Source of the DNA: Chrysophaeum taylorii
Lineage: Eukaryota > Sar > Pelagophyceae > Pelagomonadales > Pelagomonadaceae
DNA length: 39,833 nucleotides
NCBI GenBank assembly: GCA_029834535.1
Contig: JAQMWT010000486.1
Span: 1-39,833, forward strand
Direction of reading: 5' to 3'
The notes beneath the pieces were generated by a model. The model worked only from the letters and a program-made list of their open reading frames with translations. It ran no database searches and had not been told where the DNA came from. Shown one piece after another: positions 3,728 to 26,606 of this stretch (the stretch's first letter is position 1; every line of letters starts with the position of its first letter). The position numbers and the translations under genes were made by a program.

Positions 3728-3986
3728 TAGGGTCGGATAAGAAAACGAGACTAGCCCGCGCCGCAACGACGGGTCCTACAACGCGTGGGCTTTTTCCTTT
3801 TTTTGCGTGAGGGGACGAAAGGATGCCGACTTCACTATGGGGACTAGTTCCATCGCGACGATCTCGCGGCGTGGCGGCACATACTGCTTGAGTACAAATG
3901 AACATAGCTCAGCGATCCGTTGAGTATGTCTTAGTACAAACTGAAACATAGTTAACGGCTCGTACGAACTTTCTTATCCGACCCTG
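3728..3986. mobile_element. hAT-like MITE, copy 1
   Basis: This 259-bp unit starts (T)AGGGTCGGATAAGAAA and ends TTTCTTATCCGACCCTG, giving 15-16 bp terminal inverted repeats. It is bounded by GTTAGGG at 3721-3727 and again at 3987-3993, which I read as a 7-8 bp target-site duplication. A (C/T)AGGG terminus with a duplication of about 8 bp is what hAT-superfamily non-autonomous elements show. A second, inverted copy lies at 15794-16028 and is nearly identical over most of its length, which confirms mobility. It has no coding capacity. The hAT assignment is inferred from termini only; no transposase is present in the window. Confidence 0.8.
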
Positions 3987-3994
3987 GTTAGGGG

Positions 3995-5082: not shown

Positions 5083-6104
5083 CGAGGGCTGTCAGTAAGC
5101 CGCCGAAGCGAAACGGCCGTGAGGGGCAACCTATGCGCTACGTTGGCGACGGGCGGCGGTCAACCAGACGTCGGAACTCCAGAGGGCATTCAATGGCACG
5201 CGGTGGAACACGAGTTTAGCACCTTGAAGCATTACAACGCCGCCTTCTTCAACATGAGCGTCGAAAGCTGCGCCGGTGTCGTCTCGTGCCAACAAGACAA
5301 CATCTTCGACCGCGCTGCCACGATTTTTGCGGTCAAGCACCAGCGACGCGTCGCCGACGAGGTCGCTGGTCGAACGGCGATGAAGGCTAGAACGTGTGAT
5401 CGAGTTGATGGAGGACGCCTCGCCACGCTCAGCGACGACGTTCAAGGAGCGTTGATGCAGGCGGCTCGTCGTGGTCCGCAGAACCACAAGGTGCAGGCTA
5501 CCGCGCGCCGGGAGGCGGCGATTCAGAACCATCGCCGTCGCGCCGCCGTGTCCGTCGAGAAGGCCCTCGAGCGCAAGATGAACGATTACGCTAAGGCCCT
5601 GGATGCCATGAAAGTTGAGCCTGTCGTCGACGAGCATGCCCTCTTCGGGAGGACCCAGCTCTCCACGGTCAAGACGCGACTCTACGCGGGACTTAAGCAG
5701 CTCCCGAGCGACGCTGCGCGGTCGAACATCCTCAAGGCGAAAATCGAGAGGTGCGTCGTCGGCATGGGCATAGGCGACCTCAAACCCAAGTCTTAAACCT
5801 TGGGCATGGACCTGACGATCGAACAGGCCGGTTTTGAGGCCAACGTCGAATTCCTCGACGCGCACCTCAAGTACGTTCACGAACACATCAAGGCCAACTC
5901 CCACTAGTTGGTCCCCGAGGCAGTAGTACCGGGCGAGCGCCGACTGCAGCTGCCAGTGTTCGGGACCGCGACGACCCTGCGTGTCGAATTCGACGCGAGG
6001 CGGCACTTGCGCGTTGACGAGCTCAAGGTCAAGGTTGTAGAGTGCCGCGCCTCTCGCCAACCGAGGAAGCGGACGCGGACAACGAGTGGCAGCTCGAAGC
6101 TACC
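5083..6104 (+). pseudogene. Coiled-coil gene interrupted by the gypsy element (5' part)
   Basis: An open frame begins after a stop at 5080-5082 and runs to a TAA at 5794-5796. The same frame then continues as protein-like sequence through a TAG (5905-5907) up to the retrotransposon at 6105. Composition is helical and charged (KALERKMNDYAKALDAMKVE), with a helix-rich segment around LKAKIERCVVGMG near 5730-5770. After removing the element and one copy of its 5-bp target duplication, the frame runs straight on into 15593. Two in-frame stops suggest it was already broken or decayed in parallel. The function is not recognised. Layout suggests a scaffold- or transposon-type protein with coiled coil and Tudor-like parts. 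Confidence 0.5.
6100..6104. repeat. Target-site duplication of the gypsy element, left copy
   Basis: CTACC immediately precedes the left LTR and is repeated exactly at 15588-15592 after the right LTR. A 5-bp duplication is the usual footprint of Ty3/gypsy integration. Confidence 0.9.
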
Positions 6105-6441
6105 TGTGGCGTAAGGAGAATTTTAGGGGCTACCTGGCGTGCCTTCGAATCCTGGCTCGCCGCTCGCGTCCGTGCCCTTGGTGGGGTCACTGGACGAGGA
6201 TGGCCGTTCTCCCGCCACCCGACCACAAACAACTCCCGCGCCTGGTCCTCTCAACTTGAGGACCGGCTGTTGCTTTATGATCAAGGATATATCGAAAATC
6301 AGAAATCAGGGTGACGCATGTCACGGAAAAGGAAGATGATGTCTCAGAGAACACTGACATCATCAGAACGGAGTAGGGTGCCCCTGATAAGGGGGGGGCT
6401 AGAAGAGGGGTAAGCCTTAGGAGGCGGGAGTTGCCGCCACA
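6105..6441 (-). repeat. 3' LTR of the gypsy element
   Basis: This 337-bp LTR has perfect TGTGGC/GCCACA ends. Compared with the partner at 15249-15587 it differs by five substitutions (including the first base) and an 8- versus 10-base G-run. It contains two hairpins: GGTCCTC/GAGGACC at 6244-6264 and GATGATGTC/GACATCATC at 6335-6364. Both are kept in the partner, except that the second has one changed loop edge. Confidence 0.95.
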
Positions 6442-6455
6442 GGACTCCCCTGGTA
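6442..6455 (-). promoter_or_regulatory. Candidate polypurine tract
   Basis: On the element's coding strand the bases just upstream of the 3' LTR read CCAGGGGAGTCC, a short purine-rich run (AGGGGAG) in the place where plus-strand DNA synthesis is primed. The tract is short and interrupted, so this is a positional call. Confidence 0.5.
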
Positions 6456-6481
6456 AGAATTCGAGCTGCCCCAGCGAGGTG

Positions 6482-6990
6482 CTAGCGCGAGGAGCGCGGC
6501 TTCGCCTTACGAGCATCTCGTGAACGAATCTTCTGGTAAACGGGGGTGATGACCGGTTCAGGAACTCGGCCACTGCGTAAAGTAAACTTGGGTATCAACA
6601 CATCAATCTCGTGCGGAGCGAAATCCGTGACACAAGGAGTTGTGTTGGAGGAAATTCGGGACTTGTCGGTGAAACTTCGACCTTCAACGTCCTTGAACTC
6701 GGGCTTGAGCTTGCGGTGCGAAAGGTGAGAGGTCGGCTTGAAATAAGCGACATCATCGTTCGGACCCAAATCGGAATAGAAATGTAGAGCAACACGATCA
6801 TTTTGATAATCGTAAGGCTCGTAAACTTCAGCAACATAAATCTTCTTGCGCCAATCGGAGCGCTTCCGGTCGGGAATCCGGAAAACAACAAACTTACCGT
6901 GCTGATAATCATCACGGAAGGTTTCTTCGGGTTTGCGGATGGTTTGATCAACGATCGGAGGTACCATCACAGGCGTGATCTGACTAACAT
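6482..6990 (-). other. Pol C-terminal extension after the integrase GPF module
   Basis: About 165 residues follow the end of the integrase GPF region. They include a stretch rich in aromatic and beta-type residues (KFVVFRIPDRK, then KIYVAEVYEPYDYQ, then VALHFYSDLG). The pattern is that of a small beta-barrel, in the position where chromoviruses carry a chromodomain, but it lacks the chromodomain aromatic cage pattern. It could be a chromatin-reader module of another type; this is inference. Confidence 0.4.
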
Positions 6991-9900
6991 GAACACGTCG
7001 TTCTTCGGGCGGAGAGTCGAGAGACTCAATCCTATAGGTGACCGGGGAAAGGCGTTCCTTGATAATAAACGGCCCTCGCCATTCCGGTCGAAGTTTGTTC
7101 TGAAGGAAAGGAATGTAGAGCAAAACGTGCGATCCTTCCTTGTATTCAACATCAACATGATCAGCATTGTAAGCCAATCGTTGTTTCTTCAAAGCTTTAT
7201 CACGAGCCTCGCGGACGATCTTTGTATAATATTTCAATCGCTCGCGAGTCTCGGCGGCTGCATCAGAGCGAGTCTTCGGCAATAATCGTGTATCGAAATC
7301 TATAAGCGTGTAGTCAGTCGGTAGCATCGGCTGACGGTTCAGGCGCAGCATAAAGGGAGAAATCTGCGTGCCTGGAATAAACTTGCGGTTGTAGCAAAAC
7401 GCAATATAATGAGCAAAGTCAGGCCAATCCGTGATGTTCCGGCCTTGAAGGCAAGCACGGAGGAAGGCCTTGATAAATCGGTTGACACGCTCAGCCGGGT
7501 TCGACTGGGCATGATAGGGAATCGTAGTTTGGTATCGTGTGTTGAAGAGATGGCAAAACTCGCGCATCAACTTGTTCACGAACTCTTTACCGTTGTCGGT
7601 ACGAATCATCTGGGGCAAGTAGCCCTTGAGGAGGATGTTAATGACAAAAGACTCGAGGACAGACTCAGCAGTCTTATCGTTCAAAACATCCAGAATCAAG
7701 AAATGCGAGAACGGATCAAAAAATACTAGAAGATACGTCTCGGGACCAGCGCTGGGCAAGGGTCCAAATAAATCCATGCAAAGAACAGCACCATCACCAT
7801 CGTAGACGGGCTGCTGCAAGAGCCCAGCTCGTTTCGGCTCACGCGTACGAGCTTTCTGGCAAACTAAACATTCAGAAATGAAGACTCCAACTTCGTTCGA
7901 CATGTGAGGCCACCAAAATCGTTCTTGGATAGCCTGGACGGTACTGTGACGTCCCATATGACCACCGTTAGCCGGAGTGTCATGGTAGAGTCGAATAATG
8001 CGCTTGCGCAACGTAGCAGGTGCAACAATCATCGGGTGCAAATCAGCATAAATGCGGTAAAGAACATCTTTAACGACTTCGAATCGTTCGTTCGCTCGGG
8101 AACGTCGCGGCGTCTGACCATGGGCCATTCGGTAGCGAATATCCTCGCAAGTAGCATCAGATTCTTGCTCACGTGCGATCTCAGCGAGCGTCATATTATC
8201 GGGTATCTTATCGATATAATCTTTGTAAGCGGCTGCGTCCTTGAAGATCTGTGGCTCATCGCGCGCACGGTTCTTCCGACGTTGTCTCGTAGCGTGAGAC
8301 GCAGCCAATTTCATCGGATCCTTTTCAGGATCTTCTTCCTCGTCTTCCGGCAGTTCGGTCGTAATAAACGACATTATGAAGTGGCAGCCGGAGACGGGAA
8401 CTCCTCGGTCATCAACAGGTCGGGGAAGCTCATGGAACACCAAATAAGCGTGGTTCAAAGGTTCTCCAAACTCGTCAGTCTCGATGACATGATCTATCGG
8501 GTTGCGGGAGAGACAGTCAGGGATACTCATTCCCGGTGACTTTCCCGGCTTGTAACCAAGTTCAGGGTCAAAATTGGCGAGGCGCATCGCCCAACGAGCA
8601 AGCTGCCCAGACGAGTGCGTCGCCTTACGTAAAAACGTCAAATTTCGGTGATCGGTCTCCAAAACAGTACGGTGCCCTTCGATGTAGGCTCGAAAGTGCT
8701 CTAGAGAAAGTATAACTGCCAGCAGCTCTAGCCGACGGGGCTCGTAATTGCGCATCTCCTTCGGCACAGCTCGGCTCCAATATTCAATCACTCGTTCTTC
8801 TCGAGTCACTCTTCCGGCATCGTCCTTGACTTCGACAATCTGGAAGAGATATGCTCCAAGTCCATCCTTGGAAGCATCGGATCGGATCTGAAAAGGCAGA
8901 TCATAATCGGGGTGGTAGACTCCACGGGAATCAACCAAAGCTTCAATAATCGTATCCCAAGCTTTCTGACACTCGGGCGTCCACTCGAACTTTACACCTT
9001 CGAGGCATAATCGTCTCAGCGGTTCCACAATCTTCGAGTAGCCCTTCACATATCGCCGGCAGTAATTACTCATGCCGATGAAAGAGCGTATCTGGGTCTT
9101 CGGGGAAGTATTCGGTAAAGTACCTGGAATCGGCATCTTCTGCAGTGCTTCCAGCGTCATCGGATTCGGCTTCAAGCCTTCTGGGGTAGAAATGTGTCCC
9201 AGAAATTCTATATCATCCTTGAGAAGGTGGAACTTCGCGGTTCGACCGCTGTACCCTCTCTGTGCCAAATGACACATCACTTCGATCAAAACTTGTAAAT
9301 GTCGATGAAGATCGTCGGATCCCATCATAATATCGTCAACAAACGCAACCAAGTCTTGATACATCCATTTCGAAAGGTCGCTCGCCATTTGCTTGCAGAA
9401 AAGAGCTCCGGCCGTCTTCACACCTAGAGGTAATCGCAAGAAACTATGAGCGCCAAGTGGGCTAACCATCGTGACAGCGTCCTGCGCTGCCGGATCCAGA
9501 CGAAGGTTGTGGTATCCCCATCTAATATCGATGCATGTCCGCCATCGTCTCATGGCGAGAAAAGCTAAAGCATCATCTTGTCGAATGTTCGGCCAACTGT
9601 CATTGACCAATTGATCGTTGAGCTGACGTAAGTCAACTGCAGCACGGAACGCGTTTGACGTTCCAATCTCAGCTCCTTTCTTCGGAAGCATCAACACAGG
9701 AAAGCCCCAAGGTGAGTTGGCCGGACGAATGACTCCATCCCGGCACCACTCGCTGATCTGCTTGCGGAGACAATCGAGCTTCGCAGGCGTCAATCGGTAG
9801 GGCGTCATCTTAATCGGTCGCGGATTCGCGTCTTTGAATCGTAGAGACACAGGAGGCGAGTCCACAGGTCTCATAATCGGGTCGAAAAAGGCCCAAGAAT

Positions 9901-10183
9901 ATTGCACACAGTGACGGAGCATCAGTTTCGCCTCGTCATCTAAGTGCGGATTGTCAGGAATTCCCAGCTCCTGCACAACCTTGTCAACTTCTTCCTTCGT
10001 AGGAATTTTAACTTTCATTGCTTCGTTGTCCTTGACATGCTCGGGAGTTTGCGGCAGCGGTGCACTCTCAGCATCGCGCGGCGCATCTTTCCATGGCACA
10101 TCGAACTTTTCTCGTATTTTCGTTTCACTTCCGGGTGGCTTTTTTTGATTCTCTCGCCTTTGACACGGACACTCGGCTCGCTC
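6482..10183 (-). CDS. Gypsy Pol: reverse transcriptase, RNase H, integrase
   Basis: The frame is open for 1,233 codons from a stop at 10184-10186; the first ATG is at 10018. Domains in order: RT with the catalytic FVDD at 9332-9340 (YxDD variant); RNase H with its acidic residues (RSDASKDG near 8880, RRLELLAV near 8720, ETDHRNL near 8660); an H-H-C-C zinc-binding integrase N-terminus (HDTPANGGH...CLVC, about 7860-8000); the DDE core with Asp at 7772-7774, Asp at 7595-7597 and Glu at 7490-7492; a GPF module (RPEWRGPFI, about 7080); and a further stretch of roughly 190 residues. No chromodomain is seen. The frame does not overlap ORF1, which stops at 10227, so expression needs re-initiation, a subgenomic RNA or recoding. 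All catalytic residues I can place are intact. Confidence 0.92.
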   Translation of the reverse strand, partial: ERAECPCQRRENQKKPPGSETKIREKFDVPWKDAPRDAESAPLPQTPEHVKDNEAMKVKIPTKEEVDKVVQELGIPDNPHLDDEAKLMLRHCVQYSWAFFDPIMRPVDSPPVSLRFKDANPRPIKMTPYRLTPAKLDCLRKQISEWCRDGVIRPANSPWGFPVLMLPKKGAEIGTSNAFRAAVDLRQLNDQLVNDSWPNIRQDDALAFLAMRRWRTCIDIRWGYHNLRLDPAAQDAVTMVSPLGAHSFLRLPLGVKTAGALFCKQMASDLSKWMYQDLVAFVDDIMMGSDDLHRHLQVLIEVMCHLAQRGYSGRTAKFHLLKDDIEFLGHISTPEGLKPNPMTLEALQKMPIPGTLPNTSPKTQIRSFIGMSNYCRRYVKGYSKIVEPLRRLCLEGVKFEWTPECQKAWDTIIEALVDSRGVYHPDYDLPFQIRSDASKDGLGAYLFQIVEVKDDAGRVTREERVIEYWSRAVPKEMRNYEPRRLELLAVILSLEHFRAYIEGHRTVLETDHRNLTFLRKATHSSGQLARWAMRLANFDPELGYKPGKSPGMSIPDCLSRNPIDHVIETDEFGEPLNHAYLVFHELPRPVDDRGVPVSGCHFIMSFITTELPEDEEEDPEKDPMKLAASHATRQRRKNRARDEPQIFKDAAAYKDYIDKIPDNMTLAEIAREQESDATCEDIRYRMAHGQTPRRSRANERFEVVKDVLYRIYADLHPMIVAPATLRKRIIRLYHDTPANGGHMGRHSTVQAIQERFWWPHMSNEVGVFISECLVCQKARTREPKRAGLLQQPVYDGDGAVLCMDLFGPLPSAGPETYLLVFFDPFSHFLILDVLNDKTAESVLESFVINILLKGYLPQMIRTDNGKEFVNKLMREFCHLFNTRYQTTIPYHAQSNPAERVNRFIKAFLRACLQGRNITDWPDFAHYIAFCYNRKFIPGTQISPFMLRLNRQPMLPTDYTLIDFDTRLLPKTRSDAAAETRERLKYYTKIVREARDKALKKQRLAYNADHVDVEYKEGSHVLLYIPFLQNKLRPEWRGPFIIKERLSPVTYRIESLDSPPEERRVHVSQITPVMVPPIVDQTIRKPEETFRDDYQHGKFVVFRIPDRKRSDWRKKIYVAEVYEPYDYQNDRVALHFYSDLGPNDDVAYFKPTSHLSHRKLKPEFKDVEGRSFTDKSRISSNTTPCVTDFAPHEIDVLIPKFTLRSGRVPEPVITPVYQKIRSRDARKAKPRSSR

Positions 10184-10226
10184 TTAATCTTCGGTTCCCG
10201 ATCTCGCTCAGGATCTGGCGGAACGT

Positions 10227-13200
10227 CTAAATTTGGTTGTCGGGGGCAGCAGAAGAAGCATGAGACGTCCCCGGCTCATCTGTTGCAGGCGGAATCAACG
10301 GTACCTCTGGAGGTTTCCATTTGGTGCGATCTTGGAGATCATCAGTCGACACCCATCTTACGACACGTGTGCGCGTGTTTAACAGCGGAACTTGTACGTG
10401 ACGAAGGGTGGTTTCATCAATTTGCAAATAATAATCAAACGGTCGGTCTGCAGGACTCAACGCTGACGGCAAAGCTTCGCCGCTCAGGTGAAATTCCTTG
10501 GTCACAGAGTTGTGCAGATCGAGCACTAATAAGGCCATCGTGTCAGGTGGCACGACGGACGCCAAGTGTTTCAACGAGGTCGTCCTGGAGAAGCCGGCCC
10601 AATCAAAATCAGGGGGCATCGTCAGCAACTCCGAAGTCATTTTCAGATTCAGAGATCTGTAATCGGAACGGTGCGGTCCTACGCGAAGCGGGACACGCGT
10701 AACGGTGTAAGCTGCGTCTGTCGCGGCTCGTGATGATCCTAAATTGTTCATCTGAAGTAAATGTCGTTCGTCGGCGTAGCCAAGTGCTGCGGCGAACTCT
10801 TGCTGCATATTCTTGCAAGTCTTTGGAACTGCGCGCAAATGGAGCGGATGGCTGGAAACCAACAATCGCACGCGACAGCTCATCAAACTGGGAGTTATGT
10901 CGTAAAAATTGACGACGTACACGTAAGGGTGCAAACGTGCAACGTAAGAAATAATCGAAGCCTCCTGCTCTATCAACCACATGAAGAAACCAGCCATCTT
11001 GCATAATTTCATCGTCCAGTGGGTAGCGGTGACTCCTTTCCCAACATCTCTGGAGGTCAAGTTGCACAGAGCGGAGTGTACGCAGGGTGGCGACGCGACA
11101 CACATCGACGACGACCATTCCGCGTAGGGTAAATAAGATTCGATCAACCGTAAGGTTGTAACATAGCGACCACACAGTGTGTGCTGCACCACAGGAATGT
11201 TCGGAAAATTCTTATGGTGGATCTGGTTGGCGGTATCCGACGCATCGAGTGCTAGCACGACTCGAAGCGACGTCCCACACGTTTCGTTGGCTCGTTGGAG
11301 ACCTAAAGTACTGCCTCCGGCTCCACTGAACAGCATCACCACCTTGCGATAAGTGATTGGAAGCCATTGAACCTTTTCATATCGGCGGCGGATCTCCGCT
11401 TCGGTGATCTCGCGGCATTTCTTTTCATCTTCTTCTGACCTTCGAGCGAAAATCAACTGATCATTGGCCAACTTTTTGACCATTTCCCGGCAAATATAAG
11501 AAACATCTGCCATACCATCGACACCGATGGTCGTCGAGAATTTCGGTCCGTCACGATCCCTGTAGATGTGACAGGCTATAAACGTAAGAGTACCCGTATC
11601 TAAACGACGGAGGGTAACCAAATCATCTTCGATCGTCTTGCCGTCTCGCGGCGTCAACGAAGTGTGAGCACATCGGGCTCTGACTCGCTCATCTCCGGGG
11701 TTGGGCATCGATACCGCGGCTTGAGCTTTCGTATCATCTGTTGTTGGCGTCTTCGCCATAACGCTCGCGTCAGCCTCTTTATCTGGCGGCTTCCGCTCTT
11801 CCTCCAAGACAATCTCGGAGGGAATCAACGCTGGTAGGGGATCCTGGTCTTCGTAATCCTTGGAAGCAAACGACCCCTCCCATAAATCATTCATTTCGTC
11901 GTTCCAGAATGCATCTGTGAATTCATTCGTCGCCTGCTGATCCTCATCAGCATCGGCGATCGGTTCCGTGTCAGCTGCGGCTTTGAGTCTGTAGCTGCGC
12001 GGTTGTTCTGGTGGCTTCTTTAGCAAGAAATTCTGAGTTCTCGTCCACCAATCCTGCAGGTTCCACGTCGGCTCGTCTTCGTCCCACTTGAGAACGCTGC
12101 TAATCTTCTTCATAAATCTATCCTTTTCTTCCGGCGGCGTATCCGTGTCTCGATCCGTAGTAACCGAAACCGTTTCGGGGGGGTCCGCAGGAAAAGATGG
12201 CGTCGTCCCCGACGTCAACTCTATCGTAAAATCGTCGTCTGCATTACTCGCGCTGGTCATCGTCTCGTCAGTCGAATGCGCGCACGAGCTATCACTGCAG
12301 AAATCCATGTCTGGCTCACAGCCAGTTCGGTCGCCAGCGGTCGTCTCTGGAGGGTCCAAAGATAAGCCGATGGTATCGAGGGCTTCCTCATCAAAAATAA
12401 ACGGTGGGTCGTCCGTGGACGACTCGTCAAATAACGTTATCGCGGACACTGGTTCACAAAGTGTAGCTTCTTCATCTTCCGAATCTGAATCGCCTTCCCA
12501 GTATCGTGGAGCTTCGAGTTCCTCGCTCGAATCTTCGAGCTCATCGCTCGACATCTGCTCATAAATCTGTGCCAAAGACCGACGATTGGTCAGCACGTCG
12601 TTGGGTGGCTCGTCCATCGGTGGGCGAGCAAGATCTTCGAATGCGGCCGCGGCAAGGGCGTCGGCTGCGTCGTCGGTGCGGGTGTCCGTGTTCGGGTACA
12701 CCGTCACTCCTAATGGTATCTGTTGACCGCAAGGGGTCGTAAATGCGAACGTTGTAGACGACTGTCCCGAGTCTTCTCGGTAACGACCATCGTCCGAATC
12801 GCGATCGCGAGATCTTCGTCGCCGGCGGCGGCGTGAATGTCTGCTAGAGCTCCTGCTATCTTTCCGTCGGCGCTGGCACGAGCTGCTACGGCTCTTGTCG
12901 TGGCGTCGGGGGCTCCGGCTATCTCGACGGCCCGGTCGTGTCGAAGACGATCGGCCGTGTCCATCTGTTAAGTGCTGCACGGTATCCATAACCGTGGTTA
13001 GCTGCGTGCCCATATCATTGAGTCTGCTCTGAATATCGTGAGCAGCGCTCGAACCGAGGGTGGCATTAGAACTGCCGTCGTCACGCGAGTGATTATTTTT
13101 CCTTTGTCGGCTCTCCCATCGTCCTCGCGAAATGGGCTTTCTGCCGTCTTCGATGTATTTGCACATCGCTACATAATAGTCGTCGGGCTCGCGGTTGCAA

Positions 13201-14417
13201 ATGACGCGGTTCCCGTGTTCATCCTTGTCGTGGGTCGCTAAGAAAAACCCACAGTCCTTGCACGTCCTCTCGAACCACTTTTTCGGATTCTCTTCGAGGC
13301 GCAAGGCTTCATATTTCGTCGTTTTATCTTTCGTTCCCGAGACGAGAGCTCGTCCTCCGCGTCCAGGCGGTGGCTTCTGCGGCTTCCCGCTCGATGGGTT
13401 CATTGAGTTTCGGCTGTTCTTCTCCGCCATGGCTGTTGCGAAGTCGTTCTCGAGCCGTGTAATCAGCGACAACGTAGACGTGAACGTCTTATATGTCGTC
13501 GGGTGTCCGCTGCGCATCGTTCGCACGCGGGATTTCAATTCGCTGGACTCCAGTCCGCGTATCAAGTAAGATATGATCTCCACATCGTTGAGATCTCGGT
13601 TGGCCACGGAACAGTACGCCATGGCTTCTTGCTGAAATTTAATGCAATACGTATGCACGTGACGTTCTCCAGAGCGTTTCGGAACGGTCGCTTGGGTCGT
13701 GCATTGTAACTTTCGTAATGATTCTTCTGCCGTCACCGGCAGCGGACAACTCCCTCGGAAATATTTCAAAATCTTGAGGCAATACTTCTCGTTCAATCGT
13801 CGTGTCCGTCGTACCACGGAACCGTACTCCTCATCGTCGATATCCTGACGTAAATAGAAAGACGCTGGGTGATCGAGGTCTTTACACAGGTCTTCATACT
13901 TCTTTAAGTGTTCTCGAAAAATCGGTGCGACTGTGTCGCGCAGGGTCGCGGGAAGCAAATATCGGAGTTTCTCCAAGCTGAAATGGTCTTCGGCTAGCGT
14001 ACTCATCACCGCGCCCGCATCTAAATCGAACTGGTCCTGATCGCGTCCATCGAGAACCAGTTTAAAAGTTTCGGTTTTTAATCCAGAGGTTGATCGCCGC
14101 TCCTTGTTGCGATCGTGTTTAGCTAACGCGCTGGCGAGTCGATCCGTAAAACCCATCAAGAACTCTTGGGTGTCGATCCTTCCGGCGCCACGCGTCTCCT
14201 CCTTATCTTCTTCATCATCGTCTTCATAGCGCGGCTTCCTAGCTTTCGCGCGTGATCGTGTAGTCGGCGGCTCTTCCTCAGCTCGGGACTCCGGGCTGCT
14301 CGCTCGCCTTGATCGACTCGGCGTACGCAACTCGTCTCTTTCACGGGTCAACGAGCTTACTTGCTCTTGGAAGGCGTCTGCTCGAGCGTTGGCCCGACGC
14401 AGTTGCTCTATTAGTTC
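10227..14417 (-). CDS. Gypsy ORF1: Gag, protease-like segment and C5 DNA methyltransferase
   Basis: An open frame of 1,396 codons between the TAA at 14418-14420 and a TAG at 10227-10229. It opens with coiled-coil sequence, then an alpha-helical Gag capsid region (about 13,450-14,100), a Cys/His cluster (CKDCGFF...H...C...C, about 13,150-13,265), an Arg-Ser-rich tract (about 12,770-12,960), a long acidic/Ser linker (about 11,650-12,700), a retropepsin-like start (GVDGMADVSYIC, 11,490-11,535) and a C5-cytosine methyltransferase domain (about 10,330-11,345). There is no ATG near the 5' edge of this frame, so translation probably begins upstream at 14783 or by readthrough of the TAA. ORF1 and Pol are in different frames. 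Fusion of a DNMT to Gag-PR is the remarkable point. Confidence 0.88.
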   Translation of the reverse strand, partial: ELIEQLRRANARADAFQEQVSSLTRERDELRTPSRSRRASSPESRAEEEPPTTRSRAKARKPRYEDDDEEDKEETRGAGRIDTQEFLMGFTDRLASALAKHDRNKERRSTSGLKTETFKLVLDGRDQDQFDLDAGAVMSTLAEDHFSLEKLRYLLPATLRDTVAPIFREHLKKYEDLCKDLDHPASFYLRQDIDDEEYGSVVRRTRRLNEKYCLKILKYFRGSCPLPVTAEESLRKLQCTTQATVPKRSGERHVHTYCIKFQQEAMAYCSVANRDLNDVEIISYLIRGLESSELKSRVRTMRSGHPTTYKTFTSTLSLITRLENDFATAMAEKNSRNSMNPSSGKPQKPPPGRGGRALVSGTKDKTTKYEALRLEENPKKWFERTCKDCGFFLATHDKDEHGNRVICNREPDDYYVAMCKYIEDGRKPISRGRWESRQRKNNHSRDDGSSNATLGSSAAHDIQSRLNDMGTQLTTVMDTVQHLTDGHGRSSSTRPGRRDSRSPRRHDKSRSSSCQRRRKDSRSSSRHSRRRRRRRSRDRDSDDGRYREDSGQSSTTFAFTTPCGQQIPLGVTVYPNTDTRTDDAADALAAAAFEDLARPPMDEPPNDVLTNRRSLAQIYEQMSSDELEDSSEELEAPRYWEGDSDSEDEEATLCEPVSAITLFDESSTDDPPFIFDEEALDTIGLSLDPPETTAGDRTGCEPDMDFCSDSSCAHSTDETMTSASNADDDFTIELTSGTTPSFPADPPETVSVTTDRDTDTPPEEKDRFMKKISSVLKWDEDEPTWNLQDWWTRTQNFLLKKPPEQPRSYRLKAAADTEPIADADEDQQATNEFTDAFWNDEMNDLWEGSFASKDYEDQDPLPALIPSEIVLEEERKPPDKEADASVMAKTPTTDDTKAQAAVSMPNPGDERVRARCAHTSLTPRDGKTIEDDLVTLRRLDTGTLTFIACHIYRDRDGPKFSTTIGVDGMADVSYICREMVKKLANDQLIFARRSEEDEKKCREITEAEIRRRYEKVQWLPITYRKVVMLFSGAGGSTLGLQRANETCGTSLRVVLALDASDTANQIHHKNFPNIPVVQHTLCGRYVTTLRLIESYLPYAEWSSSMCVASPPCVHSALCNLTSRDVGKGVTATHWTMKLCKMAGFFMWLIEQEASIISYVARLHPYVYVVNFYDITPSLMSCRVRLLVSSHPLHLRAVPKTCKNMQQEFAAALGYADERHLLQMNNLGSSRAATDAAYTVTRVPLRVGPHRSDYRSLNLKMTSELLTMPPDFDWAGFSRTTSLKHLASVVPPDTMALLVLDLHNSVTKEFHLSGEALPSALSPADRPFDYYLQIDETTLRHVQVPLLNTRTRVVRWVSTDDLQDRTKWKPPEVPLIPPATDEPGTSHASSAAPDNQI
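10330..11345 (-). other. C5-cytosine DNA methyltransferase domain in ORF1
   Basis: The conserved motif order of C5 methyltransferases can be followed. Motif I, SAM binding: VVMLFSGAGGSTLGL near 11,300-11,345. Motif II: ALDASDTANQIHHKNFP near 11,210-11,260. Motif IV with the catalytic cysteine: SPPCVHSALCN, Cys codon 11082-11084. Motif VI position: FMWLIEQE (ENV replaced, Glu kept). Motif VIII: SCRVRLLVSS, an R-x-R core. Motifs IX-X: LLTMPPDFDWAGFSR...SVVPPD near 10,500-10,625. There is little room between motifs VIII and IX, so the target-recognition domain is small. Departures from consensus (PPCQ to PPCV, ENV to EQE, GN in motif X to AS) leave activity uncertain, but the catalytic Cys and FxGxG are intact. 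Confidence 0.85.
11430..11560 (-). other. Retropepsin-like segment with altered active site, C-terminal half absent
   Basis: The context FSTTIGVDGMADVSYICREM matches the start of retroviral-type aspartic proteases, but the D(T/S)G triad reads D-G-M. The second half of the protease fold (flap and the hydrophobic-hydrophobic-Gly motif) is not present: after about 60 residues of charged linker the methyltransferase begins. The related copy at 25971-26555 has the same altered triad but keeps the second half. Confidence 0.65.
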
Positions 14418-14876
14418 TTATTTCTCCTTCCGTTGTAGCAGTTCTTTTCGTTCGTCGTCTTCCCATATTTGTTTTAAAAGTTGTTCTTGCGCGCGTTCGT
14501 TCTCTTCGCGTAATTCCCGCAAGTGAGCCTCATAGAACTCTTTCATTATCGTTGCGTCCGGGGGTTCTGCACGCGTTGACGGAGCTGTCGATCGTCCTCC
14601 CGTCGGTCTCTCCGTGGGCTTGCCGTCGTTGTAGTTTAACTCATCTTCCTCGTCAACTTCTGTATCGTGCTCTTCTTCATCGTCATCATTATCATCATCG
14701 TCATTCCGCTCGTTCGTCTCATCCTGACGGCTTGGCGGTTCTTCATATCGTAGCTGCTCGACGGCAGCATCATCGTCTTCCATATCGGCTCTGGCTCGTT
14801 CTAGTCGGCCGAGATCAGAGCGGGTCCAAAATGGTTGAGTCGTCGTCGTTCTCGTGCTCCTTCGACTCTGGAACTT
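14418..14876 (-). CDS. N-terminal Gag segment ending at an in-frame TAA
   Basis: Same frame as ORF1. The first ATG is at 14783; the protein is very acidic (runs of D and E), then becomes a charged helix (ELREENERAQEQLLKQI) that stops at TAA 14418-14420. The helix resumes directly after the stop (ELIEQLRRANARADAFQEQV), so the stop interrupts one coiled coil. Either it is a recent nonsense mutation or it is read through. A TAG at 14877-14879 marks the upstream edge. Confidence 0.6.
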   Translation of the reverse strand, partial: KFQSRRSTRTTTTQPFWTRSDLGRLERARADMEDDDAAVEQLRYEEPPSRQDETNERNDDDDNDDDEEEHDTEVDEEDELNYNDGKPTERPTGGRSTAPSTRAEPPDATIMKEFYEAHLRELREENERAQEQLLKQIWEDDERKELLQRKEK

Positions 14877-15197
14877 CTAATCGTCCACGACACGCGTAAT
14901 ATCGTCGTTGCGTGCGTCTTCCACCGACAAATCTATCAGTCCGGTGGGCGGCAGAACTCGTCTCTGCCCGGCAAACAATGCCTTATCCGTGAGTTGCGAT
15001 CTCACTCCGCTCGCCTGCGGCAGCGGTACCCGGGTTGCGCGTCGGCTAGCACCGAATCGCGCGTCGTCACTTCCGACGACTAACGTATCCGGCCGGGGAA
15101 CTTTCCCACGGCAATGGTCCTTCTGGAATTCCTTGTCGGCGCGCTTGATCAGGGCGCGCACGGCTTGTCCGGACCGTGTAGAGAATGCAAGATGCAC
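14877..15197 (-). other. In-frame leader open reading frame of the gypsy element
   Basis: A further open stretch in the same frame as Gag, about 106 codons, lies between the primer-binding site and the TAG at 14877-14879. It has no ATG near its upstream edge and no motif. It may be untranslated leader or a third piece of an originally longer Gag N-terminus. Confidence 0.35.
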
Positions 15198-15230
15198 TAG
15201 TTCGTTGCGACCGATATAGTCGCTCGAATC

Positions 15231-15248
15231 TCGTATTCCTCCACCACC
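15231..15248 (-). promoter_or_regulatory. Primer-binding site of the gypsy element
   Basis: Directly after the 5' LTR the coding strand reads TGGTGGAGGAATACGAG after one extra G, so its complement ends in CCACCA. TGG at this place is the standard start of a tRNA-primed site. The complement reads CTCGTATTCCTCCACCA and is preceded by CGAATC, resembling a tRNA T-loop, which suggests complementarity with the tRNA 3' end may be long. I cannot name the tRNA. Confidence 0.65.
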
Positions 15249-15587
15249 AGTGGCGTAAGGAGAATTTTAGGGGCTACCTGGCGTGCCTTCGAATCCTGGC
15301 TCGCCGCTCGCGTCCGTGCCCTTGGTGGGGTCACTGGACGAGGATGGCCGTTCTCCCGCCACCCGACCACAAACAACTCCCGCGCCTGGTCCTCTCAACT
15401 TGAGGACCGGCTGTTGCTTTATGATCAAGGATATATCGAAAATCAGAAATCATGGTGGCGCATGTCACGGAAAAGGAAGATGATGTCATAGAGAACACTG
15501 ACATCATCAGAACGGAGTAGGGTGCCCCTGATAAGGGGGGGGGGCTAGAAGAGGGGTAAGCCTTAGGAGGCGGGAGTTGCCGCCACA
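15249..15587 (-). repeat. 5' LTR of the gypsy element
   Basis: This 339-bp partner of 6105-6441 begins AGTGGC on the plus strand (first base changed from T) and ends GCCACA. It should carry the promoter for the minus-strand transcript. I see no unambiguous TATA box. Confidence 0.95.
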
Positions 15588-15592
15588 CTACC
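15588..15592. repeat. Target-site duplication of the gypsy element, right copy
   Basis: CTACC, identical to 6100-6104. Confidence 0.9.
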
Positions 15593-15728: not shown

Positions 15729-15793
15729 GGGCTGGGTTGTATCTTCGTTTCCTATAACGACGGGGGCTGGGTTGTATCTTCGTTTCCTATAAC
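15729..15793. repeat. Tandem duplication, 30-bp unit at 35-bp period
   Basis: The unit that begins GGGCTGGGTTGTATCTTCGT and ends TCCTATAAC occurs at 15729-15758 and again, identical, at 15764-15793. The second copy abuts the MITE. The 35-bp period shifts the reading frame of the host sequence. Confidence 0.9.
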
Positions 15794-16028
15794 CAGGGTC
15801 GGATAAGAAAGTTCGTACGAGCCGTTAACTATGTTTCAGTTTGTACTAAGACATACTCAACGGATTGCTGAGCTATGTTCATTTGTACTCAAGCAGTATG
15901 TGCCGCCACGCCGCGAGATCGTCGCGATGGAACTAGTCCCCATAGTGAAGTCGGCATCCTTTCGTCCCCTCACGCAAAAAAAGGAAAAACCCCACGCGTT
16001 GTAGGACCCGTCGTTGCGGCGCGGGTAG
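15794..16028. mobile_element. hAT-like MITE, copy 2, inverted and truncated at one end
   Basis: This is the inverted relative of 3728-3986. It begins CAGGGTCGGATAAGAAAG and matches copy 1 (reverse complement) with only scattered differences, but the last 25 or so bases including the far terminal repeat are missing. TATAAC flanks it on both sides (15788-15793 and 16029-16034), presumably the remains of the target duplication. Confidence 0.8.
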
Positions 16029-16310
16029 TATAACGACGGTTTCCGCGGGTGACTCGTAAACGAATCCAAGCCGGCTTCCTGGCGCTTTGTGTCCGAGGAC
16101 AAGGAATACGATGAGGAGGGGGAGGGGGAGGAGGGCGCGATGGTCGTCAATGACAACGACGACTTCGAATGGCTGTGTTCGAGGGCCCCGACGCAGGTCT
16201 TCCCCGAGGGTGCCCAGCGTGAAGGCCGGGCCAATAGAAGTGGCCCCAGCGCGCGAAAGGCGCAGTCTAAACGCCCGCACGACCCTCATTGTGTCTACAG
16301 TTCCCGATGC

Positions 16311-17314: not shown

Positions 17315-19978
17315 CTAGAACCCACCCAAATAATGGGTTCCGTCCCAGTTTGCTGGGACAATATCATTGCGGCTTGCCATGAAGTTGATCAGGTATTCTG
17401 ACGGTCCGTCTCTGCCCTTGAGTGCCAGTGACTCCTTGAAACCAGACTTCGCACCTGTCCAGTCACCAGCAATGAACTTGGTGAATGCCTTCACGAAAGT
17501 CGGCCGGAAATCCGGATGAAGGTCACGTTGGATACGTTTGTACTCCGCTTTATTCCAATTAAATATATGTTGACTTTTGGACTTCTCGTCACCAGTACCT
17601 GCTATACTTCCGAAGTCCTTATCGTTGTTCGTCACATCAAATGTGTACACAATGAAAGGGACCGGTACTCCATCGCACCGAATATGGGCTATTGCACGAA
17701 CCTCTTTCTTTAAGTCTGGAGTTGCTAGATTCACCAACCAATGCGATAAGTTGAGCTTGGCTTTGAAGATTTTCGATGCAGCTTCGAGACGGTCAGACAT
17801 CTCCACATGAGGTGAAAGGTAAGTTGCATCAATTTTAAGATCGGAACCAATTGCTCCCTCGATAGCCCAGCCAACATGCATACCAAAACCCATCTCGATT
17901 TTGAACCCGAGTCCGAAGCGCCGCACGACTGCGTCGTAGGCAGCATAGCATGTGAGGCAACCATCTTCATTTTCATTTTCAAGCTCGATCTGGCACTTCA
18001 AAAATGCCGTGATCGCCGCATCAGCCAACTGTGAGGGGGTTATTTGCCGCTTCATGCGTGCAGATCCGTTTGTTGCATGACAGAGTATAGATTCATTTGC
18101 CGCATTGCGCTGGGTTTCAGAAGCTTCATCCGTGAAGCTGGTAAAACCACTGACTGAGCCATCACATATCTTCCAAGATAGCAAGAAAGCATCTCCGACG
18201 TTTTTGTTTGCCATTCCGTAGTATGAATGGGTCACTGTGTGCACGAGGTTGCCTAGCTTGTTCACATAAACCATGACCTCCTCCTGGAGACATTCCGTTG
18301 TATCAGTGAACTGACGTATATCACAGAAGCCGTAGATGGCTGTGATTTTCTTGCCAGCAATCATGGGATTTAATTTACCTGAGCCCGAATTCATGTTCTT
18401 GCCGATAATTTCGGCGCCAGCAGCACCAAAACCAACTTGAAGGAGCTGTCCAATGCGTTCGAGAGTCTGTTCGAGGAGAATGGTCTCATAACCCTGATCC
18501 CGGACTTTTTTTTTATCGACATTGAGATAAGTTGAAGAATCCAGATTGGCAGAATCCAGCGGATTCTCGGACAATCTCTTGATCAAGGTCATCATTCGTT
18601 CAATAGGGCCTATCACAAATGCTTGAGCATCGCGATTGAATTCGACAGAAGCATACACCAAAACCAACATAATGAAGAGCGTCTTCAGGATTGCTAAACC
18701 AGAGAGTAGTCTTTCTTGTCGTCGGATAGAGAAAACTGCAACTGACAAACACGTGGGCGACTGATAACGTTGTCGATAGTCACGTTCTTCCCGGTCGATA
18801 TGTCCGCCTCCAGTAGGGCCGTCAAGTTTCAAGCCGCCATAAAACTCTAATGGTGGAGCCGCCACATAACATCCGACATGAGATGAGATTAGAATTTCGG
18901 AGGCGCGATGTTTTGTCCGCTTTGCAACAGACATCGCCCGTCTACGCGACCCTTTCACACCATCCTTACCAAGACCACGTCTGGGTTCTTTTATAAACTT
19001 ACCAGAAAAACCCGTTTCATCACGTGCCCAACGCCGCAGAGTGCCATGAGACCATGTCGTGTTGCATTCTTCGGCATAGACATATTCTGCAAAGCCAACC
19101 TGGGGCTCACAAACTTCCAGATACAAGACAGGAAACAACGACTTCTTGACATAGAACGTAACAAGATTTCTGAAACACCCCTCAGAGATGTTGCCTGTTG
19201 CGTTGTAATTCTGCGGATACTGATGCAAGTGCCTCAGAAAATTATGATGGAAGTTGTAAGTATTGGCTACGAGCGAGGATGAGTGAAGCCAGGGCAACAC
19301 CATGATCATAGTCAACATCATCAAAATCAGTCTACGCGTTGTCACTTCTGTTAACTTCTTTCCGACTTGGGTGGCCTCCAACGTGTCGTCAACCAGAGCT
19401 TCGTTAGCATTATGCATTTTGTACAGCTTCACGACACGGACCATCCTTACTAGTCGAACAATACGGATAATTCGTGAAGCACGAGTTCCTACTCGTCCAG
19501 CTTTGCCAGCTCTCATCATTTCCGTTGTGGATCCCCGCTCGCCAGACAGTACAGAGGATAGGTTATCCAATACAATCGGAATCTCTGATAAGATTGAAAG
19601 CGTCGAAACGATGTCAATCCAGAAATAAAAGCTTCCAAAATAATGGTCGAACGCGAAGGAGTTGAACATAATCTCCAGTAAGAAAAGCGCGATGCAGAGC
19701 CAGGCACAGACTATAAAACCTCGATCAGAAGACGTATCTGTCACAGATAGACGCAAATCGTTTCCAAAAAGCGCATAAAGAGTGATAAACGTCATTAAAG
19801 CAGAGAGGTAACTGTTTTCCATAGAGCACTTTGCGAAAAACCGCATGCTGTTCAGCCATTCGTGCCTGCACTTCACCTGAGAGAGTTTATAAGTTTCAGC
19901 CAAACCAAGAACCTTGGGTGCTTTCGCGCATTCTTCCGCTTGAGCTTGGGCATTTGTGTCAGCTACTTTGGATCCCAT
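17315..19978 (-). CDS. Voltage-sensor membrane protein fused to a class III nucleotide cyclase
   Basis: An intact single-exon gene of 887 codons. ATG at 19976-19978 is the first in frame after a stop at 20015-20017. Membrane helices lie at about residues 58-75, 88-110, 117-143 and 160-185; the last is an S4-type helix with Arg/Lys at every third position (RIIRIVRLVRMVRVVKLYK). A fifth helix is near 215-240, then a soluble, Cys-containing extracytoplasmic region, a helix near 423-446, a linker helix (IGPIERMMTLIKRLSENPL) and the cyclase domain from about 540. Metal-binding Asp residues are present (FCDIRQFT, codon 18320-18322; NVGDAFL, codon 18191-18193). The Arg of the transition-state pair is present (codon 17789-17791), but the Asn four residues earlier is Glu (17801-17803). 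It would make cAMP or cGMP at a membrane, possibly voltage-gated. Base composition is less GC-rich than the flanks. Confidence 0.9.
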   Translation of the reverse strand: MGSKVADTNAQAQAEECAKAPKVLGLAETYKLSQVKCRHEWLNSMRFFAKCSMENSYLSALMTFITLYALFGNDLRLSVTDTSSDRGFIVCAWLCIALFLLEIMFNSFAFDHYFGSFYFWIDIVSTLSILSEIPIVLDNLSSVLSGERGSTTEMMRAGKAGRVGTRASRIIRIVRLVRMVRVVKLYKMHNANEALVDDTLEATQVGKKLTEVTTRRLILMMLTMIMVLPWLHSSSLVANTYNFHHNFLRHLHQYPQNYNATGNISEGCFRNLVTFYVKKSLFPVLYLEVCEPQVGFAEYVYAEECNTTWSHGTLRRWARDETGFSGKFIKEPRRGLGKDGVKGSRRRAMSVAKRTKHRASEILISSHVGCYVAAPPLEFYGGLKLDGPTGGGHIDREERDYRQRYQSPTCLSVAVFSIRRQERLLSGLAILKTLFIMLVLVYASVEFNRDAQAFVIGPIERMMTLIKRLSENPLDSANLDSSTYLNVDKKKVRDQGYETILLEQTLERIGQLLQVGFGAAGAEIIGKNMNSGSGKLNPMIAGKKITAIYGFCDIRQFTDTTECLQEEVMVYVNKLGNLVHTVTHSYYGMANKNVGDAFLLSWKICDGSVSGFTSFTDEASETQRNAANESILCHATNGSARMKRQITPSQLADAAITAFLKCQIELENENEDGCLTCYAAYDAVVRRFGLGFKIEMGFGMHVGWAIEGAIGSDLKIDATYLSPHVEMSDRLEAASKIFKAKLNLSHWLVNLATPDLKKEVRAIAHIRCDGVPVPFIVYTFDVTNNDKDFGSIAGTGDEKSKSQHIFNWNKAEYKRIQRDLHPDFRPTFVKAFTKFIAGDWTGAKSGFKESLALKGRDGPSEYLINFMASRNDIVPANWDGTHYLGGF

Positions 19979-20014
19979 CACTTTACGTTGGTGCCGACAC
20001 CCTTTATGGAGTCG

Positions 20015-22867: not shown

Positions 22868-24795
22868 TCTAAAATGCACATCACGGCGTTCGGGCGGAGG
22901 GTCGAGAGACTCGATCTTGTAGGTGACAGGAGACAGGCGTTCCACGATAATAAATGGGCCGCGCCATTCCGGTCGAAGCTTGTTCTGGAGAAAAGGAATG
23001 TAGAGCGAAACATGCGATCCCTCTTCATACTCAACACCAACATGGTCCGCAATGTAAGCGAGCCCTTGCTTCTGGAGAGCTTTCTTGCGAGCATCATTCA
23101 CCGTAGCGGTGTAGAACTTCAATTTCTCGCGGATCTCTGACACAACATCAGAGCGAGTTTCCGGCAAACGTCGGGCGTCCAGATCCATGATCGTGTAATC
23201 AGTCGGCAGCAGCGGCTGTCGATTGAGGCGAAGCATGAACGGAGAAATCTGCGTACCCGGGATGAATTTGCGATTATAGCAGAGCGCTATATATTCTGCA
23301 AAAAGTCCGTGATGTGCCGGTCCTGAAGGCACGAACGGAGAAAGGCCTTGATAAAGCGGTTGACCCGCTCAGCCGGATTCGCTTGAGCATGATACGGAAA
23401 CATAGTGCTATACCGCATGTTGAATAGCTGACAAAACTCTTCCATCAACTTGTTGACGAACTCTTTTTTCCATTGTCGGTACAAATCATCAGAGGCAAGT
23501 ACCCCTTGAACAAGATATTCGCGACGAAAGACTCGAGGATCGCCTCAGCAGTCTTATGATGCAGCACGTCGAGAATCGGGGAATGAGCAAATGGATCGAA
23601 GAACACCATGAGATACGTCTCGGGACCTGCACTGGGCAAAGGCCCGAACAGATCCATGCAGAGGACGGCGCAGTCGCCGTCATACGCCGGTTGCTGAAGA
23701 AGACCGGCTCTCTTGGGTTCTCGCGTGCGGGACTTCTTACACACCAAACACCCAGCGATGTATCTGCCCACTTCATTTGACATGTGGGGCCACCAAAAAC
23801 GTTCAAGTATCGATTGCACGGTACTGTCACGACCCATGTGACCACCATTGAGAGGGGTATCATGGTAAAGTCGGATGATGCGCTTCCGCAAGGTGCGGGG
23901 AGCGACTATCATTGGATGAACATCAGGTGCGACACGGTAGAGGACACCCTTCACAACTTGATAGCGAATGTTAGCCTCTTGTCGGCGAACAGTATGCCCC
24001 TGAGCCATGCGATGGCGAATGTCTTCGCAAGTGGCGTCAGTGATCTGTTCCTTGGCAATCTCTTCCAAAGTCAAATTATCCGGAATCTTGTCGATGTACT
24101 CTTGGTAATCATCGGCATCTCGGAAAATACTCGGCGGGGATCGCAGACGCTTCTTCTGACGTTGTCTCGTGGCGTGAGACGTAGCCAACTGCATCGGGTC
24201 GTCGCGATCATCTTCTTCTTCATCCTCAGGCAACTCAGTCGTGATAAACGACAAAATGACCTGACATCCAGCTAGTGGTACTCCTTTGTCATCGATGGGC
24301 CGAGGAAGTTCTTGGCACACCAAATAGGCCTGATTTAAGGGTTCACCAAACTCGTCCGTCTCGATAACGCGATCGATGGGATTGCGAGAGGGGCAGTCCG
24401 GGATACTCATTCCCGGCGACTTCCCTGGTTTGTAGCCCAGTTCAGGATCAAAGTTGGCAAGTCGCATCGCCCATCGAGCCAACTGACCGGACGAATGCGC
24501 CGCCTTCCGTAAAAACGTCAAATTGCGGTGATCCGTTTCGAGGACCGTCTTGTGCCCTTCAATGTAAGAGCGAAAATGGTCGAGAGAAAGAATAACTGCC
24601 AGTAGCTCTAGCCGACGGGGCTCATAGTTCCGCATTTCTTTCGGCACAGCTCGGCTCCAATACTCGATCACTCGTTCTTCTCGGGTCACCTTTCCGGTGT
24701 CGTCCTTGACTTCCTCGAGTGGGTAAAGATACGCGCCCAGGCCGTCCTTGGAAGCATCCGAGCGGATCCGAAAGGGAAGATCGTAGTCCCGGGTT
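22868..24795 (-). pseudogene. Gypsy Pol fragment of a second family member: RNase H and integrase
   Basis: Closely related to the Pol at 6482-10183 and collinear with it. It begins abruptly inside RNase H (RIRSDASKDGLGAYL near 24,750) and runs through the RNase H acidic motifs, the zinc-binding integrase N-terminus (HDTPLNGGH...CLVC), the DDE core and the GPF module, ending before the C-terminal extension. Two frameshifts are visible: one in a T-run at about 23463-23469, right after the second catalytic Asp, and one near 23300 where bases are missing relative to the intact copy. No LTRs are attached. RT and the C-terminal extension are absent, so it is inactive. Confidence 0.9.
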
Positions 24796-25080: not shown

Positions 25081-25900
25081 TGCCGACAAATCAAGAACTC
25101 CAAAAGGAGATAAAAGATCAAGAGGCAAGGCATCAAAAAGAGATGACCAACATGCGAGCCAACCATCAACAAGACATTCAAGATCTTCGCGGTATGACGA
25201 GGCAAATGCAAGCTACGCAAGGAACAACACCACCTGCCGTCGCTGCTGCGACTGCTCCTCCCACGGCTCCACAAGACCCCAAAAACAAGACTAACACCTT
25301 TAGTGACCCACCAAGCTCTGTCCTCAAGTCCATGGACGGCGCTCAAGTCACCCCCAAATGCGCGTTATGCAGTTGTTCGCTGAAGATCTCGTGCTCGAAA
25401 CCGGCATTACGCAATACTTCCTCCAGGGCTTCTACCCGTGGGAGTCCGTCTTACGCAGATCTAACGATCTGGCAGGCGCTCTCCTAAGCCACTGTATCAA
25501 GGAATATGACAAGGACCCCGATAACCATGCCACCGCCGGCAATACTCTAGATTTCCAAGGCCGTTTCGTCTACAAGGGCGTCTACCGCAAGTTCGGCAAG
25601 CACTTCCTTGCGAACGTCTATGAGCCAAAACTCCAAGAATTCAAAGACCAAGACAAAGATCCGACCGATACGACGAAAGGGAAGTTATATCAGGTCACGC
25701 AACCTCACCTCCAAGGAAAAGAAGCCGACTTCATCGTGTACCTCCGCGAGACCGTGCACCCCCTCTTTCGCCGTTTCCTGCATGCCGGTAGCGACTCCGT
25801 CAAGCACCCAGCATACGACGAAATTGATGCACTCGGATCCTCCCATCCGATAGGACTCGAATTCGTACTACAAGTCCGTCTCGCACTTAGTACACGGGCC
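25081..25900 (+). pseudogene. Gag-like fragment of a second methyltransferase-bearing element
   Basis: ATG at 25081 starts a charged coiled-coil leader (QELQKEIKDQEARHQKEM) and a Pro/Ala-rich stretch. A frameshift near 25,350 then moves the coding signal to another frame, carrying a capsid-like helical region (LETGITQYFLQGFYPWESVL and later FIVYLRETVHPLFRRFLHAG) to about 25,880. It aligns poorly with the Gag of the 6105-15587 element, so it is either a divergent Gag or a different capsid type. No zinc cluster is seen between it and the protease, suggesting a deletion near 25,880. Confidence 0.55.
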
Positions 25901-25970
25901 AGAACGAACGAGCCGACAGAGCTGGTGGTCGAGAGCCCACCGATTCTTCGCCGAATGCGCGCACGTATCG

Positions 25971-26555
25971 ATGCCGATGGCAGGGACGGAGGACGAAGCG
26001 ATGTGCATGCACTCCTCTTTCGCCTCCATCAACGCCGAAACGATCGGCAGAGACCTGCGCGTCCTTAACTGCTTGGAAGCCGGCAGCCTGACGTTCATGC
26101 CCATCCCCGTGTTCAATAAGCCGGGCGACTCATCGTATGCCACAGTGATCGGTGTGGACGGAATTGCCGACGTCACCTACATCTGTCGCGACCTCGCCCG
26201 CCTAATGCGACGGCGAGGGATGTTGCTGGACAGCGGCAAGCTGCCTTTCGAGCGAACGCTCGTCGGATCGGGAAAGAACACGACCTCGATTTCAGAGTGG
26301 ATCGCCCTGCGAGTATCCGTCTCGGACGAAATGGCCGTACCGGTAGTCGCAATCGTGGCAGACACCAACAAACAACTTCTGCTGGGAGCCCGCGACATCC
26401 GAGCCTTGGGCGCTGTCGTAGATTATCCCCGAGACCAAATTTCCTTCTCGCGAACCCAAACAGTCTTCCAGATGATGAAGCTTCCATACGCTGGGGAAAT
26501 CGTTCGGTCACCCCCACTCTTTATCGGGCAGCGTACGAAAGACACCCTGTTGTAG
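25971..26555 (+). pseudogene. Retropepsin domain with DGI active site
   Basis: The segment reads VIGVDGIADVTYICRDL at 26147-26200 and later LLLGARDIRALGAVVDY at 26365-26425, the two signature parts of a retroviral-type aspartic protease. The catalytic triad is D-G-I instead of D-T/S-G. The upstream 60 residues match the corresponding region of the other element (CMHSSF... compared with CAHTSL..., then ...GSLTF... compared with ...GTLTF...). The open frame ends at a TAG at 26553-26555 and continues in frame beyond it. Confidence 0.75.
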
Positions 26556-26606
26556 CGCCGATTTGCGGTTTTCGAGGGCAAGCGATGACGCAGAGTCGGA
26601 GTCAAG

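Follow-up and report, generated by a model that had tools for sequence, protein, structure and literature searches.

Retrotransposons that carry a DNA methyltransferase (DNMT) are an already known kind. de Mendoza 2018 (PMC5890265) described SymbioLINE-Dnmt, SymbioDIRS-Dnmt3 and KnitGypsy-Dnmt3, which were found with the profile PF00145, and earlier reports present such enzymes as captures in dinoflagellates and one charophyte. Texts citing this work speak of C5-methylase sequences revealed in Ty3/Gypsy and DIRS (PMC6338049) and of DNMT3 in "LTR Copia and DIRS" elements (PMC12344493, 2025), and PMC12477816 mentions, for an Ectocarpus DNA transposon, a methyltransferase predicted to act on N4 of cytosine or N6 of adenine. 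The family that we report here is a variant of this kind, and we compared it with the Klebsormidium and Symbiodinium elements by their published description. According to PMC5890265, KnitGypsy-Dnmt3 of Klebsormidium nitens likewise has the Ty3/gypsy set of domains, its polyprotein includes a C5 methyltransferase under purifying selection, and the family is intronless and multicopy. Its domain is classed as Dnmt3 and its repeats are arranged as in DIRS elements, whereas our element has plain direct long terminal repeats (LTRs) with a 5-bp target-site duplication, its domain scores close to the Pfam cut-off or under it, and its host has a plastid of the red type. SymbioDIRS-Dnmt3 and SymbioLINE-Dnmt from Symbiodinium resemble it in the many retrotransposon-borne C5-methyltransferase copies in one algal genome, but they are DIRS (tyrosine recombinase) and LINE elements and not LTR elements with a DDE integrase. 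The words "stramenopile" and "haptophyte" do not occur in the main text of PMC5890265, and the accessible portions of PMC9998398, PMC6338049 and PMC12477816 do not describe our family. A literature search over titles and abstract openings, subscription papers and preprints aside, gave no report of a domain-bearing Ty3/gypsy clade.

The window, by which we mean the whole stretch of 39,833 nucleotides that was analysed, corresponds to contig C486 in an assembly of 697 contigs and 70.8 Mb. It contains an LTR retrotransposon at 6105-15587 on the minus strand, flanked by two direct LTRs and not by the DIRS-like repeat arrangement of KnitGypsy-Dnmt3. The 5' (right) LTR covers 15249-15587 (minus, 339 nt) and the 3' (left) LTR 6105-6441 (minus, 337 nt, with the ends TGTGGCG / CGCCACA). 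They are 98.5% identical, the differences being five substitutions and a 2-nt gap within a run of G, and they are bordered by a perfect CTACC target-site duplication at 6100-6104 and 15588-15592. This bears out the preliminary description, which had seen a real and recent mobile unit. ORF1 (10227-14414, minus) is an open frame with a Gag region, assigned by position, a truncated protease (PR) and the methyltransferase. ORF2 (pol; 6482-10099, minus) gave profile matches to reverse transcriptase (RT, RVT_1, 9191-9685), RNase H (8570-8908), H2C2 (7844-8020) and the integrase core (rve, 7511-7792), all on the minus strand. This is the Ty3/gypsy order, and it is accompanied by two TG..CA LTRs, the right one starting with A and not T, and a short duplication. 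No aspartic protease was matched by Pfam in ORF1, and we assigned the protease region by eye. Elsewhere in the window, a pair of 241-nt inverted repeats (98.8% identical) lies at 3750-3990 and 15790-16029, with one arm immediately outside the element. A broken pol from RNase H to integrase at 22874-24788 (minus) encodes protein 78-81% identical to ORF2 of the main element. Finally, a probable host gene at 17315-19981 (minus) matches Ion_trans with 29.3 bits; its C-terminal part looks nucleotide-cyclase-like by eye only.

The C-terminal part of ORF1 had been read, from the letters alone, as carrying the ordered motifs of a C5-cytosine methyltransferase, and both motifs and fold confirm this. 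The fold core spans 10503-11345 (minus), and all motifs, likewise on the minus strand, follow in order: motif I FSGAGG, the SAM site, at 11313-11330; motif IV PPC at 11082-11090 with the catalytic Cys codon at 11082-11084; motif VI IEQE with its Glu at 10962-10973; motif VIII CRVR (RxR) at 10866-10877; the motif IX region at 10605-10640; and motif X SVVPP at 10545-10559, with a profile match to M.HaeIII across the IX-X region. Structure prediction, which had been proposed as a check, delivered the C5-methyltransferase fold with a pLDDT of 84.4 and a pTM of 0.83; AF2 run from the two window sequences alone reached a pLDDT of 32.5. The 50 best PDB rows listed by each of Foldseek and VIA are all structures of the C5-methyltransferase family, one of them a C5-carboxymethyltransferase. 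Foldseek ranks DNMT2 first (E 2.1e-12), and DNMT2 is also among the best profile matches of the domain. VIA places M.HaeIII (23.5) and DNMT1 (23.1) before DNMT2 (20.9), with small differences between them. In the VIA rows listed, M.HaeIII, M.HhaI, DNMT1, DNMT2 and DNMT3 are 11-17% identical to the window domain, which differs from them by EQ in place of EN in motif VI and by being part of a retroelement polyprotein. In C5 methyltransferases motif VI usually reads EN. The profile check gave a divided answer: the domain alone scored 23.3-23.8 bits with PF00145, above the cut-off of 22, while the whole ORF stayed below it with 19.2 bits, and the profile matched just 6 of 11 family members at E 1. 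Protein searches with the domain alone or with its 11-row profile returned no homologue. Such low scores are what one would expect if the motifs were a chance resemblance in a fast-changing linker. We nevertheless reject this reading as next to impossible, given the fold, the motifs and the purifying selection, to which the homologues described below add, and we are almost certain that the domain is a C5 methyltransferase.

Loss of catalysis, with the domain kept for nucleic-acid binding or for a structural role in the polyprotein, has to be weighed more carefully, since motifs IV and VI are variant. Within the clade motif IV reads PPC, PSC, VDC or PDC, and a second methyltransferase domain in the window, at 27230-28324 (plus), has lost the motif IV Cys. 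It belongs to a subfamily of the same clade that we call A2 and is 44% identical to the first. This copy is the sole loss among 41 distinct genomic copies, 40 of which keep the catalytic Cys, while the motif VI Glu and the RxR are present in 41/41. In a 9-row alignment of domain-bearers, EQ and RxR are found in 9/9 rows and the Cys in 8/9, and all three residues, Cys, Glu and RxR, are retained even among rows only 22% identical. The variant motifs and a selection that is weaker than on the RT (see below) speak for loss of catalysis, which is very unlikely in our view; the conserved residues speak against it, and the domain is probably active.

The copy in the window is itself incomplete. It is short of 334 codons (1,002 nt) that the copies L039, L042 and L044 have between the protease start and the methyltransferase. 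Only the N-terminal part of the protease region remains (11478-11588, minus), with the deletion junction near 11447. The C-terminal protease part is kept by 31 of 34 distinct loci in tblastn and is absent in the window copy, L019 and L046. Because the missing 1,002 nt take in much of the protease, the window copy is probably not autonomous. Its split into ORF1 and ORF2 accompanies a C tract between methyltransferase and RT (10242-10246, minus), which is 5 long here and 5 to 12 long among the aligned copies. The length of this tract varies with the frame among otherwise near-identical copies. It may mark a genuine slippage site, or the assembly may have got the homopolymer lengths wrong. We counted the frames at this junction by hand in 34 distinct copies, a set without L039, L040, L041 and L044, which repeat L014, L031, L038 and L013. 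Methyltransferase and RT share one frame across the junction in 19 copies, 16 of which are stop-free in the stretch examined, and lie in different frames in 15. In L039 and L040, about 24 kb apart on one contig (G000:C5), a single frame runs for 3063 and 3067 codons, but roughly 1.46 kb of the window copy's gag region is missing from both. In the metagenomic relatives P0006 and P0007, a single ORF holds a PR-like motif, the methyltransferase, RT, RNase H and integrase. The preliminary description had taken the domain to close a Gag-PR ORF; that ORF end turns out to belong to the window copy, and the shared frames, the single-ORF copies and the single-ORF relatives rule it out as a family trait. 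Because of these shared frames and single ORFs, sequence comparison places the domain between PR and RT.

Relatives outside the genome surfaced only with a longer query, the methyltransferase plus RT of L039, and not with the domain alone. This search gave 23 related polyproteins, seven of which have the same domain upstream of the RT: P0003 from MMETSP, and P0004-P0007, P0009 and P0010 from metagenome sources. In blastp the first window domain is 26-33% identical to these seven (E 1.2e-46 to 7.6e-18) and the A2 domain 22-31% (E 3.7e-35 to 7.7e-13). The other 16 polyproteins gave no blastp match with E < 0.5 to either domain, and searches of a viral contig collection gave no relative. In the main RT tree (23 rows; P0023, P0024 and P0025 excluded) the window element, its close subfamily A1' (see below) and P0003-P0007 form a clade with 100/100 support, in which all seven rows bear the domain, while P0009 and P0010 form a separate clade (100/99). 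Two changes of the domain label are needed on this tree, as on an earlier tree with fewer rows; the smaller tree had 21 rows, its length filter having removed P0008, P0009, P0016 and P0025. All domain-bearers in a single clade would also be compatible with the data (p-AU 0.285), a grouping seen in 11% of the bootstrap trees. The homologues at the same place and the RT tree therefore suggest that the domain predates the split of these lineages, with one or two acquisitions, and that such enzymes are long-standing in some retrotransposons.

Within the genome, the search with the domain gave at least 112 rows, 96 with 87-100% identity (A1) and 16 with 79-82% (A1'); this number is a lower bound, as 112 of 1078 candidates were scored. 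Subfamily A2 adds 25 rows at 80% identity or more, fragments included. The A2 copy in the window is the remains of an element at 25358-28483 (plus) with gag/PR-like ORFs and the methyltransferase, whose catalytic PPC reads QTF; PPC is kept in six other A2 copies examined. For selection we used 34 sequences (27 A1, 2 A1' and 5 A2), omitting L022 and L025 (shorter match), L033, L035, L036 and L056 (stops), L058 (partial) and repeats of other loci, and computed dN/dS by Nei-Gojobori with our own script. For the domain, dN/dS was 0.071 between A1 and A1' (54 pairs), where a dS of 1.78 is close to saturation. Inside the subfamilies it was 0.18 for A1 (27 copies, 702 ordered pairs), 0.20 for the single A1' pair and 0.27 for A2 (20 ordered pairs). 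No ratio was obtainable between A1 and A2 (133/135 pairs saturated) or between A1' and A2 (10/10). The RT of six copies gave 0.023 between A1 and A1' and 0.079 within. The domain is hence under purifying selection, weaker than that on the RT. A recent capture is ruled out by the many genomic rows under purifying selection, the 44%-identical subfamily and the domain in 7/23 relatives. The elements are a real C5-methyltransferase-bearing Ty3/gypsy family, in which the domain is an old and selected part of a clade that is older and wider than the preliminary description supposed.

What, then, may the enzyme do? Element anatomy, fold, motif set, copy number, purifying selection and homologues at the same place were established in this analysis, and they are the basis of the reading that we mildly favour: in a Ty3/gypsy family whose algal host has a red-type plastid, an old selected domain of a PR-methyltransferase-RT polyprotein would mark the element's own new DNA. 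The methyltransferase would be made as part of the Gag-PR(-Pol) polyprotein and packaged with RT into the virus-like particle. There it could methylate C5 of cytosines in the freshly copied DNA of the element, ahead of integration or while it takes place, and the new copy would arrive pre-marked, either to be taken for host DNA or to establish a chromatin state of its own. The position between PR and RT would imply that the enzyme is made together with the particle proteins and can reach the nascent cDNA. That the own cDNA is the main substrate is a possibility that we rate at slightly less than even. Against the favoured reading stand the EQ for EN in motif VI, the variable motif IV, a dN/dS above that of the RT, and the null results for CpG that follow.

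Heavy and lasting CpG methylation of the copies would lead one to expect CpG loss. The CpG observed/expected ratio is 1.30 for the whole element and 1.18-1.33 for A1 and A1' stretches, compared with 0.97-1.23 in other parts of the window taken as host and 1.26 and 1.46 at host-gene loci; the LTR alone (337 nt) is lower, with 0.79. Among 27 copies, singleton transitions are no more frequent at CpG (11 of 176 columns) than at the remaining C or G columns (24 of 348; p 0.85), and they show no C-to-T/G-to-A strand bias (p 0.60). In a cell-based count, which overweights shared changes, the top class is G in CHH with 25.5 per 1000. CpG is thus neither depleted across the element nor hypermutable and lends no support to self-methylation. 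These data speak against lasting CpG methylation, or for another sequence context, a passing mark, an RNA substrate or good repair. SymbioDIRS-Dnmt3 likewise has no significant CpG depletion and is active in yeast; KnitGypsy-Dnmt3 showed no activity there, a result that its authors call inconclusive (PMC5890265). The missing footprint would also fit an RNA C5-methyltransferase that acts, in the manner of DNMT2, on the element RNA or the tRNA primer, as would the ranking of DNMT2 in the Foldseek and profile searches. We consider this unlikely, as the best VIA rows are DNA methyltransferases, albeit by small differences. Action in trans on host or rival DNA, which would alter silencing or provide defence against other elements or DNA viruses, is in keeping with the many copies in the genome, and a defence role for retrotransposon methylases has been proposed in PMC6338049. 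It seems distinctly unlikely to us, because the stretches examined show no genome-wide CpG loss and relatives encode the domain in one frame with the particle proteins, which favours in-particle action.

The preliminary description had also supposed a lineage other than the published ones, and this is supported by the host. The large subunit of RuBisCO (rbcL) on contig C697 is of the red type, judged by its PDB matches and their organisms. Red-type RuBisCO implies a plastid of red ancestry, so the host is no charophyte, and 70.8 Mb is a small assembly for a dinoflagellate. The genome has a DNMT2-like gene of its own (L001, 69.6 bits) and a gene that joins a DNMT domain (61.9 bits) to an SNF2 domain (L059), presumably of the DNMT5 type. 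In the methyltransferase tree both sit on long branches, L001 in an open fork with the clade of the elements.

Additionally, the same genome holds a Ty1/copia family that carries a C5 methyltransferase (L047 at G000:C314:149000-158999, L048-L051 and L003-L008), with 134 genomic rows, fragments included. In L047 one frame contains DNA_methylase (29.9 bits, residues 355-492) and RVT_2 (97.9 bits, 1686-1848). A DGGAS protease-like motif, seen by eye, precedes the methyltransferase, which lies far upstream of RVT_2. PF00145 matches 7/7 aligned members, and PCQ (LPCQ) and ENV are invariant. The profile of this domain gave three PDB matches with E about 0.03, all cytosine-specific methyltransferases, and a profile comparison of the gypsy and copia domains found no similarity (probability 0.1%). 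Taking both families together, we tentatively picture, with somewhat more doubt than belief, a standing Ty3/gypsy clade across several eukaryotic lineages in which the methyltransferase is a regular component between protease and RT, largely missed because of its near or sub-cut-off Pfam score, and marks new DNA in the particle; the copia lineage here would have gained one separately, just after its protease. An older, selected clade with metagenome and MMETSP homologues would imply a long history, in some mobile elements, of the enzyme class by which their hosts silence them. What a retroelement gains from a methyltransferase becomes testable, in members with and without the domain and in two unrelated families of one genome. 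The window itself has an ordinary-looking Ty1/copia pol (RVT_2, retroviral SH3-like) at 29844-32696 (minus), in an ORF without a methyltransferase match. The copia copy L049 has a 198-nt LTR-like pair with 96.5% identity, about 8.9 kb apart.
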